The position numbers and the translations under genes were made by a program. The notes under the pieces are model-generated. The model saw nothing but the letters and a program-made list of their open reading frames with translations. It was not told the DNA's origin and ran no database searches. A stretch of DNA of 46,607 bases, taken from NCBI GenBank assembly GCA_030157655.1, contig JAOAUK010000044.1, positions 1-46,607 of the forward strand, written 5' to 3'. Source of the stretch: Polynucleobacter sp. Its GTDB lineage: Bacteria > Pseudomonadota > Gammaproteobacteria > Burkholderiales > Burkholderiaceae. Shown one piece after another: positions 43,089 to 46,607 of this stretch. The stretch's first letter is position 1; each line of letters starts with the position of its first letter.

Positions 43089-43113
43089 ATAACGGCTTAT
43101 TGGCGCTTATTTT
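43086..43113 (+). terminator. Terminator-like hairpin after tRNA-Arg
   Basis: CCAATAA pairs perfectly with TTATTGG around the loop CGGC, followed by CGCTTATTTT. The first three stem bases are the encoded CCA of the tRNA. The tail is only partly T-rich, so efficiency is uncertain. The last bases overlap the stop of the convergent lipoprotein gene. Confidence 0.55.
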
Positions 43114-43547
43114 GTTACGGGTGGCACAACAGTGCTACGAGGCGCCACAGTTAACATCACATTTGTTTTACCAATCCAGCCTGCATCTTCTATCTCAATC
43201 GTAGCGGTTCTATCTTTCTTGATAAAAACCAAAATGCTATTTTTTGTTTTGGTTGAAGAAACTAAGGTCCAACCTGCTTTTTGAAATTGATCACGGAAAA
43301 AGGTGAAGGTTTCATTAGAGTTTTGTTGAGCAATAATTGCAACTCTGCCTGCCCAACCATCGCCACTACCAAGAATCAATGTATTTTCATTGTTTATCTT
43401 AGCTCCACCTGGCATTGGCATATCACCTAACAACTTTGTTTGAATATCTTGAATGGATTCACCATCTGCATTAGCCATGGGCGTTGAAGCGCACCCTGAA
43501 TACAGCGTTACAGAAAAACAAAATAGAGCTACAAGTAATTTATTCAT
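43107..43547 (-). CDS. Putative lipoprotein of unknown function
   Basis: A 146-aa exported protein. The signal sequence MNKLLVALFCFSVTLYSGC ends in a plausible lipobox (LYSGC, slightly unusual with Tyr and Ser), followed by ASTPMANADG, so lipidation at Cys19 is likely. The mature part includes MPMPGGAKI, a compact domain with FTFFRDQFQKAGWTLVSSTK, and KNSILVFIKKDRTATIEIED, a pattern seen in small periplasmic alpha/beta domains. I do not recognise a named family. Its start overlaps the SemiSWEET stop by eight bases (ATGAATAA). Confidence 0.75.
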   Translation of the reverse strand: MNKLLVALFCFSVTLYSGCASTPMANADGESIQDIQTKLLGDMPMPGGAKINNENTLILGSGDGWAGRVAIIAQQNSNETFTFFRDQFQKAGWTLVSSTKTKNSILVFIKKDRTATIEIEDAGWIGKTNVMLTVAPRSTVVPPVTK

Positions 43548-43794
43548 TGATCTTCATCCACAAAATCCAAAGCGATATCAATAATGTAATCGCATTTGCA
43601 ATAACCACAGGCCAGGCGCTGATAAAAGTACCATACACCAACCACAGAAAAACACCAAGACTAAAAATCAAATACATCCACAATGAAATAGCTTTTGTAT
43701 CTTTAGTTTTATAAATGCGCCAAGCTTGCGGCAAAAAAGCACACGTAGTGAGAGCTGCTGCTACAAATCCAAGAATATTCTCAAAATTCATCAA
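43540..43794 (-). CDS. SemiSWEET-type PQ-loop sugar transporter
   Basis: An 84-aa membrane protein with three transmembrane helices, the size of a bacterial SemiSWEET, which works as a dimer for passive sugar movement. The PQ-loop is in TTCAFLPQAWRIYKTKDTKAISLWMYL, and a second helix pair carries FSLGVFLWLVYG and ITLLISLWILWM. The substrate is unknown; the motif set is consistent with mono- or disaccharides. Its 3' end overlaps the lipoprotein gene, so both are probably expressed together. Confidence 0.87.
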   Translation of the reverse strand: MMNFENILGFVAAALTTCAFLPQAWRIYKTKDTKAISLWMYLIFSLGVFLWLVYGTFISAWPVVIANAITLLISLWILWMKINE

Positions 43795-43989: not shown

Positions 43990-44430
43990 TCAAACTGCTT
44001 GACAGAGAAAAATCTTGCCGTCTTTCTCTTCAATGTTAAGTTTAATTAAGGTAGCACCATGCGGGCATGGTCCAGAAATACACTCCCCCGTATCAGGTAA
44101 ATACTGTGCATCATGTGATGCACAAATCAATGCACTTTTATCTAATGTAAAAAATTGACCTGGTTGCCAATCCAATTCCATAGCAACATGAGCACATCTA
44201 TTTAGATAGGCATGAGCTTGGCCATCGAAACGAATTACAAAAGCTGGGAGTGTTTCATCAATGCGATGATCAACAGTACCCACCTTACTAGCAATATCAG
44301 ATGTTCTCACCATAAAACGAAAGCCCTCACCCTGATCTTCAAGCTGTTCAGAAGAGCAGATAAGATGGCCGGCTTGAACCAAAGGCTCAAAATCATCGCT
44401 TGATGAATCGTTGTCATTCGTTGAACTCAT
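43990..44430 (-). CDS. Rieske [2Fe-2S] domain protein
   Basis: A 146-aa soluble protein with a single Rieske-type cluster site: the first ligand pair CAH (NRCAHVAMELDWQ) and the second CASH (ICASHDAQYLPDTGECISGPC), as in ferredoxin components of dioxygenases or stand-alone Rieske proteins. The C-terminus has GPCPHGATLIKLN. There is no signal peptide, and an acidic serine-rich N-terminal stretch precedes the fold. No oxygenase gene is adjacent, so it could be an orphan electron carrier. It is divergent from the Nudix gene with 84 bases between. Confidence 0.9.
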   Translation of the reverse strand: MSSTNDNDSSSDDFEPLVQAGHLICSSEQLEDQGEGFRFMVRTSDIASKVGTVDHRIDETLPAFVIRFDGQAHAYLNRCAHVAMELDWQPGQFFTLDKSALICASHDAQYLPDTGECISGPCPHGATLIKLNIEEKDGKIFLCQAV

Positions 44431-44514: not shown

Positions 44515-45330
44515 ATGTCATTAATTTCTGCCACAACACGCGCTGCATTAGAAGAGATCTTAGAAACAGCACTAAGACCTGCCCCTTCCAACTGGCAAAC
44601 CATTCGTTTTGGTACAGAGGTGATTGGCCATATTCAGCCTGATTACGTCGGCACAATCGAAACTTATATTGCTAATGCAGAGACTCCAGCCATTGTTCGG
44701 TTTGGTGAGCACCTACAACTAGAAAAATTACCTCCTTATTTACTAAGCCAAGAACTTCAAGAATTAGCTGAATTTTTAAGGAAAGAAGGTTTGGCGCCAG
44801 GTTGGCGTAATGAATCATTTGCATGGGTTGATCATCTAGGTCATGAACGATTCAGGATGGAAAGAGCTGCTTTTAGATCTCTAGGACTTCATAGTAGGGC
44901 TTGCCATATCAATGGATACACCAATAATCAAGAGATTTGGCTAGGTCTTCGTAGTTCCACCAAGGCCACCGATCCCAACATGTTGGATAACCTTGCTGCA
45001 GGTGGCGTCAGTGCCGATGAAACCTTGTTGCAATGTGTCATTAGAGAGTTATGGGAAGAAGCTAGCGTACCAAGAGAGTTAGCTTGTCTGGTTGAACCAG
45101 TTGGCCACATCCATGTGAGTCGCGTTGTGGAGCCCAAAGGGCTTCATGATGAGAGTCTATACACCTATGACTTAGAACTTCCTTTGGACTTTACGCCTCA
45201 AAATAATGATGGTGAAGTGGCAAACTTTATTAAAGTGCCCTTCAATCAAGCTGCTAACTTGATACTAGAAGGCGCACTAACACCAGATGCAGCAGCCGTG
45301 ACAGCTGACTTTCTTTTAAGAAAAGCTTAA
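44515..45330 (+). CDS. Nudix hydrolase with DUF4743-type N-terminal domain (thiamine-damage or TPP-related family)
   Basis: A 271-aa protein with an N-terminal domain of about 120 residues like the Tnr3/YJR142W group (LPPYLLSQELQELAEFLRKEGLAPGWRNESFAWVD) and a C-terminal Nudix domain. The Nudix box is GGVSADETLLQCVIRELWEEASV, in which the canonical glycine after EEx is serine. Characterised members hydrolyse oxidised or oxo forms of thiamine diphosphate, so removal of damaged TPP is the best guess, supported by the TPP riboswitch three genes on. The track TTG start (44467) is less likely than this ATG. It begins the cluster with the PnuC-like and NadR-like genes. Confidence 0.85.
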   Translation: MSLISATTRAALEEILETALRPAPSNWQTIRFGTEVIGHIQPDYVGTIETYIANAETPAIVRFGEHLQLEKLPPYLLSQELQELAEFLRKEGLAPGWRNESFAWVDHLGHERFRMERAAFRSLGLHSRACHINGYTNNQEIWLGLRSSTKATDPNMLDNLAAGGVSADETLLQCVIRELWEEASVPRELACLVEPVGHIHVSRVVEPKGLHDESLYTYDLELPLDFTPQNNDGEVANFIKVPFNQAANLILEGALTPDAAAVTADFLLRKA

Positions 45331-45348
45331 TTAGCATACTCAAATTAG

Positions 45349-45912
45349 ATGGAAATCTTTGCTTTCATACTGTCTTTGGCCTGCGTTCTATTGAATGCAT
45401 ACGGAAAAATTCTGACTTGGCCATTGGCAATTGCCAGCTCTTCTGCTTATGCCTATGTATTCTTTAATAGCCAATTATTTGGTGATGCTGCCCTTCAATT
45501 TGTATTTATTGGTTTAGCCATATATGCCTGGATTACTTGGTATAAAAAAGATTTGTGCCATGAACCAAACCATCCCTCTTTTTCTAGAATTCCAGCAAAC
45601 TCCATCAGCCAATCCGCTATAGCTTGGTTGGTCATGTTTCTGATCATCCAATACGTTCTACAAAATTACACCAGCTCAGATGTGCCAAATATTGACGCCT
45701 TCTTAACTGCTGGTAGCTTATTAGCCACATATATGAGTGCGCAAAAGTGGTTAGAAAATTGGTTGCTATGGGCTTTTGTGGATCTTCTTTATATTGGCCT
45801 TTATGTTTATAAGGATTTGTATTTAACTGCTCTGTTATATGGTCTACTGATTGCCTTATGTCTCTTAGGCTGGAGACATTGGTCCAATCAGATGAAAGTT
45901 GAAGCAAGTTAA
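45349..45912 (+). CDS. PnuC-family vitamin transporter (PnuT candidate for thiamine)
   Basis: A 187-aa membrane protein with about seven hydrophobic segments. The PnuC signature is clear: LLNAYGKILTWPLAIASSSAYAYVFFNSQLFGDAALQFVFIGLAIYAWITWYKK and the later LENWLLWAFVDLLYIGLYVYKDLYLTALLYGLLIALCLLGW. PnuC proteins import nicotinamide riboside; PnuT relatives import thiamine. The neighbouring Nudix and TPP riboswitch favour thiamine, but a NadR-like partner is also what nicotinamide riboside uptake would need. It follows the Nudix gene by 18 bases, and its stop overlaps the next start (TAATG). Confidence 0.85.
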   Translation: MEIFAFILSLACVLLNAYGKILTWPLAIASSSAYAYVFFNSQLFGDAALQFVFIGLAIYAWITWYKKDLCHEPNHPSFSRIPANSISQSAIAWLVMFLIIQYVLQNYTSSDVPNIDAFLTAGSLLATYMSAQKWLENWLLWAFVDLLYIGLYVYKDLYLTALLYGLLIALCLLGWRHWSNQMKVEAS

Positions 45913-46484
45913 TGAGTCATGTTTTAAAGATTGCCATCGTTGGTGCTGAATGCACAGGTAAAACAACGCTGGCCAAGGATTTAACAGAAGTCTTTAAAAA
46001 AGACTATCCATGTGCTTTTGTACCTGAGTATTTGAGAACTTTTGTTGATCAAGAAAAAAGAACTCCAAAATCTGATGAGCAGATTAATATTGCCCTCACT
46101 CAAAAGGCAGCAGAGAAAGATACAGCCAAAGAATTAATGGAAGCAAATCCAGAGGCGGCGGTTGTATTACTGTTCTGCGATACCGCTCCACTATTAACCT
46201 CGATTTACAGCGAAGTTGTTTTTGCTGGTAGCAATCCTGGTTTAAAAGAAATTGCTCACAACCATGACTACGATTTAACGCTCTTTACCCAAGTAGACTT
46301 TCCTTGGATTGAAGATGGTATGCAAAGAGATGGTCCTGTAGCTCAAACTAAAGTTCACTACCGACTCAAAGCAAGGTTGGATGAGCTAAAGATCCCATAT
46401 GAATCAATCAATGGAATTCCGGCAGAAAGAGTGAAAAAAACCCAAAAGATCATCCAGCCTTTGCTACAACAACTCCAAAAGTAA
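45912..46484 (+). CDS. NadR-like P-loop kinase/AAA protein
   Basis: A 190-aa single-domain P-loop protein of the NadR kinase/AAA_28 type. The P-loop is AECTGKTTLAKDL at residues 12-24, followed by the FVPEYLRTFVD segment shared with NadR and an aspartate in VVLLFCDTAPLLTSIYS. It lacks the nucleotidyltransferase and helix-turn-helix parts of full NadR. A kinase that traps a vitamin imported by the adjacent PnuC-type carrier is likely; thiamine or nicotinamide riboside are the candidates. The start codon overlaps the transporter stop by one base. A TPP riboswitch follows it. Confidence 0.8.
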   Translation: MSHVLKIAIVGAECTGKTTLAKDLTEVFKKDYPCAFVPEYLRTFVDQEKRTPKSDEQINIALTQKAAEKDTAKELMEANPEAAVVLLFCDTAPLLTSIYSEVVFAGSNPGLKEIAHNHDYDLTLFTQVDFPWIEDGMQRDGPVAQTKVHYRLKARLDELKIPYESINGIPAERVKKTQKIIQPLLQQLQK

Positions 46485-46492
46485 AAAATCCT

Positions 46493-46498
46493 TATAAT
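46493..46498 (+). promoter_or_regulatory. Possible -10 element for the TPP-riboswitch transcript
   Basis: An exact TATAAT lies nine bases after the NadR-like stop and 30 bases before the riboswitch. No matching -35 hexamer is present at the expected distance, so the promoter call is tentative; initiation near 46505 would fit a short leader. A small hairpin (GTCTA...TAGAC) lies between this element and the riboswitch. Confidence 0.4.
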
Positions 46499-46527
46499 TA
46501 GGTGTGTCTAGAAGTTTTAGACATTAG

Positions 46528-46607
46528 CTCGGGGTCCTGCATCAAGTCGTATCGATGTGGGTGAGAAATACCCGTTGAACCTGATCTCGATAATGCGAGC
46601 GCAGGGA
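46528..46607 (+). ncRNA. TPP riboswitch (THI element), cut by the window edge
   Basis: The conserved thi-box blocks are in order: CTCGGGGT, GGGTGAGAAATACCC, TTGAACCTGATC, GATAATGCGAGCG and CAGGGA at the right edge. This binds thiamine diphosphate and normally lowers expression of a thiamine gene when the cofactor is plentiful. The expression platform and controlled gene lie beyond the window; thiC is the commonest target in Betaproteobacteria, but this is only a guess. Confidence 0.95.

Follow-up and report, generated by a model that had tools for sequence, protein, structure and literature searches.

A predicted thiamine uptake and trapping locus with a lone NadR-like kinase in thiamine-auxotrophic Polynucleobacter

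Main finding

A short gene cluster at the end of a Polynucleobacter contig very probably serves the uptake and trapping of thiamine in members of the genus that no longer make the vitamin. The cluster lies in the window, by which we mean the whole stretch of 46,607 nucleotides that was analyzed (contig JAOAUK010000044.1, positions 1 to 46,607), whose closest named relatives are all Polynucleobacter. It encodes a carrier of the PnuC family and a lone NadR-like kinase, flanked by a Nudix hydrolase gene on one side and a TPP riboswitch on the other. An earlier note on this DNA had neither the TonB-dependent receptor, which is encoded beyond the window end, nor the thiamine auxotrophy of the host genomes, and these two are the strongest evidence.

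Organization of the locus

Three open reading frames were called on the plus strand, with a gap of 18 bases between the Nudix and carrier genes and an overlap of 1 base between the carrier and kinase genes. These coordinates bear out the junctions as first described, and ORF, Pfam and Rfam searches confirmed the observation as a whole, namely a Nudix enzyme, a PnuC-type carrier, a lone NadR-like kinase and a TPP riboswitch. Since the same order recurs in loci of related species, the genes are not chance reading frames. The features are as follows.

44515 to 45330, plus strand: Nudix hydrolase (DUF4743/NUDIX architecture), resident, flanking the uptake island (Pfam, 3DUP match, Nudix box, tree)
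45349 to 45912, plus strand: PnuT-type carrier of the PnuC/NMN_transporter family, putative thiamine facilitator (Pfam, single copy, tree, co-occurrence)
45912 to 46484, plus strand: lone NadR-like kinase (AAA_28, ribosylnicotinamide-kinase-type), putative thiamine kinase (Pfam, PDB, tree, genus distribution)
46493 to 46498, plus strand: -10 box TATAAT, likely the receptor gene's own promoter (invariant alignment columns, read by eye)
46520 to 46607 (46520 to 46624 on the contig), plus strand: TPP riboswitch aptamer, leader of the TonB-dependent receptor gene (Rfam RF00059)

The carrier is present in a single copy in the genome and matches the Pfam family NMN_transporter (PF04973) far over the cut-off (E 2.5e-47). 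The NCBIfam model that scores above its cut-off on this protein is the nicotinamide riboside transporter PnuC, and automated annotation would therefore assign the carrier to NAD metabolism. The kinase, of 190 residues, contains a P-loop domain of the ribosylnicotinamide kinase type (Pfam AAA_28, E 3.4e-28), and its top PDB matches are NadR kinase domains. The NMN adenylyltransferase domain is absent from it: TIGR01526 was matched only at its C-terminal part (164-317 of 325), with a score of 67 against a cut-off of 341.

The TPP riboswitch starts 35 bases past the kinase stop codon. Its position 3' of the kinase had been given correctly, its distance (44 bases) had not. It is cut by the window end, where it scores 56.9 bits; the complete element on the 46,751-base contig reaches 59.2 bits against a gathering cut-off of 54.3. 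On the same contig, 3' of the riboswitch, a reading frame begins at about 46662 (MAYMPKLNHIAGAC...), and its relatives are TonB-dependent receptors of 720-750 residues. The motif TATAAT is found just 5' of the aptamer in 10 of 10 aligned loci. Between the aptamer and the start codon there is a perfect stem of 8 bases (GCCATCGT...ACGATGGC), which encloses the ribosome-binding site AAGGAG and contains the start codon. This stem is invariant across the aligned loci, so that covariation speaks neither for nor against it, and its fold z-score is -1.9. In this genus, receptor expression thus appears to start from a separate promoter and to be switched by TPP at the level of translation, and the three 5' genes would not be directly under the riboswitch. 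The same had been proposed from the placement of the riboswitch after the three genes, which is right for this genus and agrees with the conserved -10 box in front of the aptamer.

Thiamine auxotrophy in the genus

The presence or absence of genes was judged by family searches. The kinase was detected in 12 of 186 Polynucleobacter genomes, and ThiC is absent from all 12. Among the 144 genomes of high quality (at least 90% complete and at most 5% contaminated), 9 have the kinase and 134 have ThiC; ThiC is absent from 9/9 kinase-bearing genomes and from 1/135 kinase-free ones. This single exception, G025, is an assembly gap, because its contig C123 begins inside thiO and continues with thiG, thiE and thiD. 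Of the first set, seven genomes have the carrier; in these, true ThiE is absent (PF02581 gave no match or one under 27 bits), and a true ThiD is likewise missing (at most 31 bits, against 286-300 bits in intact prototroph genes). Precursors are therefore not usable by these bacteria, which are left with thiamine or TMP. ThiL was found in all 61 genomes searched and thiamine pyrophosphokinase (TPK) in none of 18. With ThiL kept and TPK absent, a thiamine kinase has to act on imported thiamine ahead of ThiL, and the unit's own kinase is the obvious candidate to fill this gap between thiamine and TMP.

In a tree of the genes around thiL, the seven auxotrophs form one clade (100/100), apart from the prototrophs and the outgroup, so the association within the genus counts as a single evolutionary event. 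A second event is provided by the lineage of G053, from another family of the order, in which carrier, kinase, TPP riboswitch and receptor follow one another and in which ThiC, ThiE and ThiD were likewise not found.

Fragmentary or stop-interrupted thiC matches were also seen in G017 (L093), G456, G459, G472 and G531, which have neither carrier nor kinase. In G017, thiL and several of its neighbours are broken as well, as in a decaying symbiont genome.

Chromosomal slot and apparent receptor exchange

The arrangement of a divergent Rieske gene followed by Nudix, carrier, kinase, TPP riboswitch and receptor recurs in the other Polynucleobacter species fetched, with two short contigs (L022 and L207) that stop inside the unit. 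Within the genus the unit is conserved in one clade. Among the prototrophic species, the main group has in this slot parE (minus), caiB, MFS, a tRNA, Nudix, the TPP riboswitch, thiC, thiO, thiG, thiE, thiD (minus) and a tRNA. In the auxotrophs it contains parE (minus), caiB, MFS, a tRNA, the lipoprotein, PQ-loop and Rieske genes (minus), Nudix, carrier, kinase, the TPP riboswitch, receptor, GNAT (minus) and a tRNA. In G003, G015 and G025 the Nudix gene is located between parE and GNAT with no thi gene adjoining, and the thi genes are on other contigs.

The auxotroph riboswitch is far from the thiC riboswitches of the prototrophs and has several stretches in common with that of the G053 receptor locus, which suggests that it probably came together with the receptor. 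The slot is thus common to the thiC operon and the uptake island, and two histories are equally possible. One is a direct swap. The other is an insertion between Nudix and GNAT followed by the loss of a separate thi operon, a course made equally possible by the riboswitch being nearer to the G053 type than to the thiC type and by the Nudix-GNAT arrangement without thi genes in G003, G015 and G025.

Three further genes on the minus strand accompany the locus. A small Rieske ferredoxin-like gene (43990-44430) is divergent from the Nudix gene in the fetched auxotroph loci; it does not adjoin Nudix in prototrophs, and a 45% relative is found in L094 (G003), at a distance of about 3-4 kb from the thi operon. 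The genes for a small PQ-loop (SemiSWEET-like) membrane protein (43540-43794) and a lipoprotein (43107-43547) overlap by 8 bases, and the pair is kept beside the island in several species and absent in others.

The receptors of the auxotroph clade belong to two classes that are about 36-41% identical (G029, G006 and G027 against the rest). At the DNA level, G027 and the close species G441 and G512 are 81-99% identical over the carrier, kinase and riboswitch, about 40-64% over the mature receptor and then 79-95% over the receptor end and the GNAT gene. Comparison of L027 (11284-13346) with L208 and L209, from near-sister species, places the swap breakpoints at the signal peptide and at the gene end. 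In the receptor tree, the class of G029, G006 and G027 groups with receptors of the G053 lineage, and the other class with those of other Burkholderiales. The pattern looks as if the mature part of the receptor had been exchanged as a cassette while the riboswitch and signal peptide stayed in place, and pressure from phages or bacteriocins on an indispensable receptor may be its driver.

The Nudix hydrolase

The Nudix protein of the window matches Pfam NUDIX (3e-11), and DUF4743 at a sub-threshold 23.8 bits against a cut-off of 25; DUF4743 is matched by 10 of the 14 aligned relatives, at best with 1.7e-11. Its best solved relative is 3DUP (E 1.7e-26), and the Nudix-box residues G163/G164, E169, R177, E178, E181 and E182 are invariant in 14 relatives. 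Every one of the 37 genus genomes in the first set has the gene, and its tree, in which the root is weak, shows grouping by genus. It is therefore considered a resident, vertically inherited gene outside the acquired unit. Within the genus its neighbour is thiC in the majority of prototrophs, and in auxotrophs it stands beside the uptake genes, so that two different thiamine gene sets adjoin it; among the carrier loci fetched from outside the genus, none has it.

For the earlier note's proposal of a thiamine repair role within the unit, the support is family resemblance; the gene is resident in 37 of 37 genomes and has no thi neighbour in G003, G015 and G025. As to activity, the chances appear about even that the enzyme removes diphosphates of damaged thiamine, a role that would fit with the thiamine genes that flank it in two different arrangements. 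This activity is reported for the Tnr3/YJR142W group, and fungal and plant relatives hydrolyze oxo- and oxythiamine diphosphates, according to Goyer et al. 2013, a study cited in PMC5389931. The likeness to this cross-kingdom group (the Nudix domain of Tnr3, and YJR142W) would consist of a DUF4743 and Nudix architecture, which for DUF4743 is sub-threshold in the window protein and clear in its relatives, along with an intact catalytic box. The window protein differs in being bacterial and free-standing, with a putative activity, and here its linkage to thiamine genes is seen only within this genus.

A competing explanation keeps thiamine uptake as proposed and regards the Nudix enzyme as a resident housekeeping gene unrelated to thiamine, beside which the thiamine genes landed by chance. 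It has a little less than an even chance of being correct. The occurrence of the gene throughout the first set, its grouping by genus, its place beside parE and GNAT without thi genes in three genomes and its absence from the fetched carrier loci outside the genus all agree with such a history, whereas the proximity to two different thiamine gene sets and the reported activity of the fungal and plant relatives (Goyer et al. 2013, cited in PMC5389931) argue against it.

Distribution and phylogeny of the carrier and kinase

Relatives of the carrier were found in 67 of 399 Burkholderiales genomes, and 73 loci were examined (60 plus 13 earlier ones). A TPP riboswitch is found beside a lone kinase at 27 of the 73, the locus of the window included. 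A full NadR, with adenylyltransferase and kinase domains, is encoded at 9 loci, and a TPP riboswitch was detected at none of these. All 27 TPP-linked kinases lie within one clade of 35 rows in the kinase tree (split support 92/90), and for 8 of the 35 there is no riboswitch within the fetched stretch. The other 21 rows include every NadR, with all 9 full proteins, and no TPP-linked kinase. In the carrier tree, the Polynucleobacter carriers belong to a clade of 33 rows (98/88) that are accompanied by lone kinases or, in two rows, by no kinase that was found, and never by NadR. At eight loci (L141, L146, L150, L151, L152, L157, L158 and L172; families f38 and f23), the TPP riboswitch, receptor, carrier and kinase follow in close succession on one strand. 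The carrier thus has the association that distinguishes PnuT, with a TPP riboswitch and thiamine genes instead of NAD genes. L41, R50, P52, Q57 and W132 are found in 27/27 TPP-linked kinases; of the NadR kinases, all 7 that have a residue at 41 carry G, and the remaining four positions are mostly different. These five residues are markers of the clade, and their role as specificity residues is putative only.

The same data bear on NAD salvage, in which the carrier, as a true PnuC, would bring in nicotinamide riboside and the kinase would be a ribosylnicotinamide kinase. The family names, NMN_transporter and the above-cut-off NCBIfam PnuC model, are in keeping with it, and the closest solved relatives are PnuC and NadR. 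However, the kinase is without an NMN adenylyltransferase domain, the full-NadR loci lack the TPP riboswitch (0/9) and their carriers and kinases are outside the thiamine-linked clades, and a perfect association with the loss of thiamine synthesis would not be expected, which makes NAD salvage distinctly unlikely. A clustering of orthologous carriers with NAD genes had been named beforehand as an outcome against a thiamine role; it was not seen in the conserved neighbourhoods, and the carrier and kinase clades are distinct from the NAD-type PnuC and NadR. The import of HMP or thiazole, with the kinase as an HMP or thiazole kinase, is more improbable still: precursor auxotrophy is common in freshwater bacteria, and Limnohabitans is without thiC and has pyrimidine transporters (PMC12637900), but neither ThiE, which joins the two halves of the vitamin, nor ThiD was found in G053 or in any of the seven auxotrophs tested.

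We consider it reasonably probable, at a lower level than the thiamine role of the locus itself, that this NadR-type clade is the dedicated thiamine kinase of PnuT/TonB systems across Burkholderiales, with the Polynucleobacter unit placed in the slot of the thiC operon and its mature receptor swapped like a cassette behind the fixed riboswitch and signal peptide.

Two other arrangements were observed among the loci. In a separate clade (L031, L145, L147, L148, L155, L162, L163, L166, L168 and L175; families f5 and f22), the carrier and a lone NadR-like kinase occur with no TPP riboswitch or receptor nearby, and nicotinamide riboside is a possible substrate. At L030, L154 and L156, the receptor and carrier adjoin an APH-fold kinase instead of a NadR-like one, and the receptors are nested among the TPP-linked receptors in the tree. 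This replacement was rejected as proof of thiamine kinase function, as no TPP riboswitch was found at these loci and none of the APH proteins fits a ThiK model; as support for a thiamine kinase role it is only suggestive.

Proposed mechanism and comparison with known systems

In thiamine uptake and trapping as we propose it, the TonB-dependent receptor, under the TPP riboswitch, would carry thiamine across the outer membrane, and the PnuT-type carrier would let it equilibrate across the inner membrane. Conversion to TMP by the lone NadR-like kinase would then trap the thiamine, and ThiL would convert TMP to TPP. At high concentration, TPP would bind the riboswitch and lower receptor translation, probably via the hairpin in which the ribosome-binding site and start codon lie. 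The neighbouring Nudix enzyme may clear useless or toxic thiamine diphosphate analogues formed from imported damaged thiamine. It is from the sequences that we infer the substrates of the receptor, carrier, kinase and Nudix enzyme, and the direction of regulation. An idea of uptake, trapping and sanitation had been put forward for this DNA. Uptake and trapping have gained support, with carrier and kinase present only where ThiC is gone and belonging to TPP-linked clades, and with the riboswitch heading the row in eight relatives; for sanitation, the support stays at family resemblance.

The theme of PnuT, TonB and TPP is already known (PMC5613172; PMC2771747). For the PnuT of Bacteroides thetaiotaomicron, thiamine transport has been reported; together with a TonB receptor it is required for growth at low thiamine concentrations once synthesis is removed (PMC5613172). 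The Bacteroidetes system of PnuT, OMthi and a Tnr3-type pyrophosphokinase (BT2390, BT2396-2397; PMC5613172) and the locus described here both have a TPP riboswitch, a TonB receptor, an inner membrane carrier of the PnuC family and a neighbouring trapping kinase. In contrast to that system, the trapping enzyme here would be a NadR-like kinase and not a pyrophosphokinase, the riboswitch is 5' of the receptor only, thiamine synthesis is lost and there is an extra Nudix gene. With the PnuC and NadR system for nicotinamide riboside, the locus shares a homologous carrier and kinase domain in adjacent genes, and presumably the same logic of facilitated diffusion and trapping by phosphorylation. It differs from this system in the missing adenylyltransferase domain, the different clades, the TPP riboswitch nearby and a presence tied to the loss of ThiC. 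Relative to the known PnuT system, three things appear new: a defined clade of putative trapping kinases of the NadR-like type, a slot shared with the thiC operon, and the apparent exchange of receptors. An earlier description of NadR-like thiamine kinases was not found in the literature searched, which excludes key older PnuT papers, and priority for the kinase assignment is uncertain.

Conclusions

In many freshwater bacteria vitamin B1 has to come from other organisms, and the enzyme that traps imported thiamine is often not named. The locus gives a specific and testable candidate thiamine kinase family that databases now label as NAD-related, and the annotation of lone NadR-like kinases beside PnuC-type carriers is worth revisiting. 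It also offers related genome pairs with biosynthesis or uptake in the same chromosomal place, and would explain how one freshwater lineage lives without thiamine synthesis.
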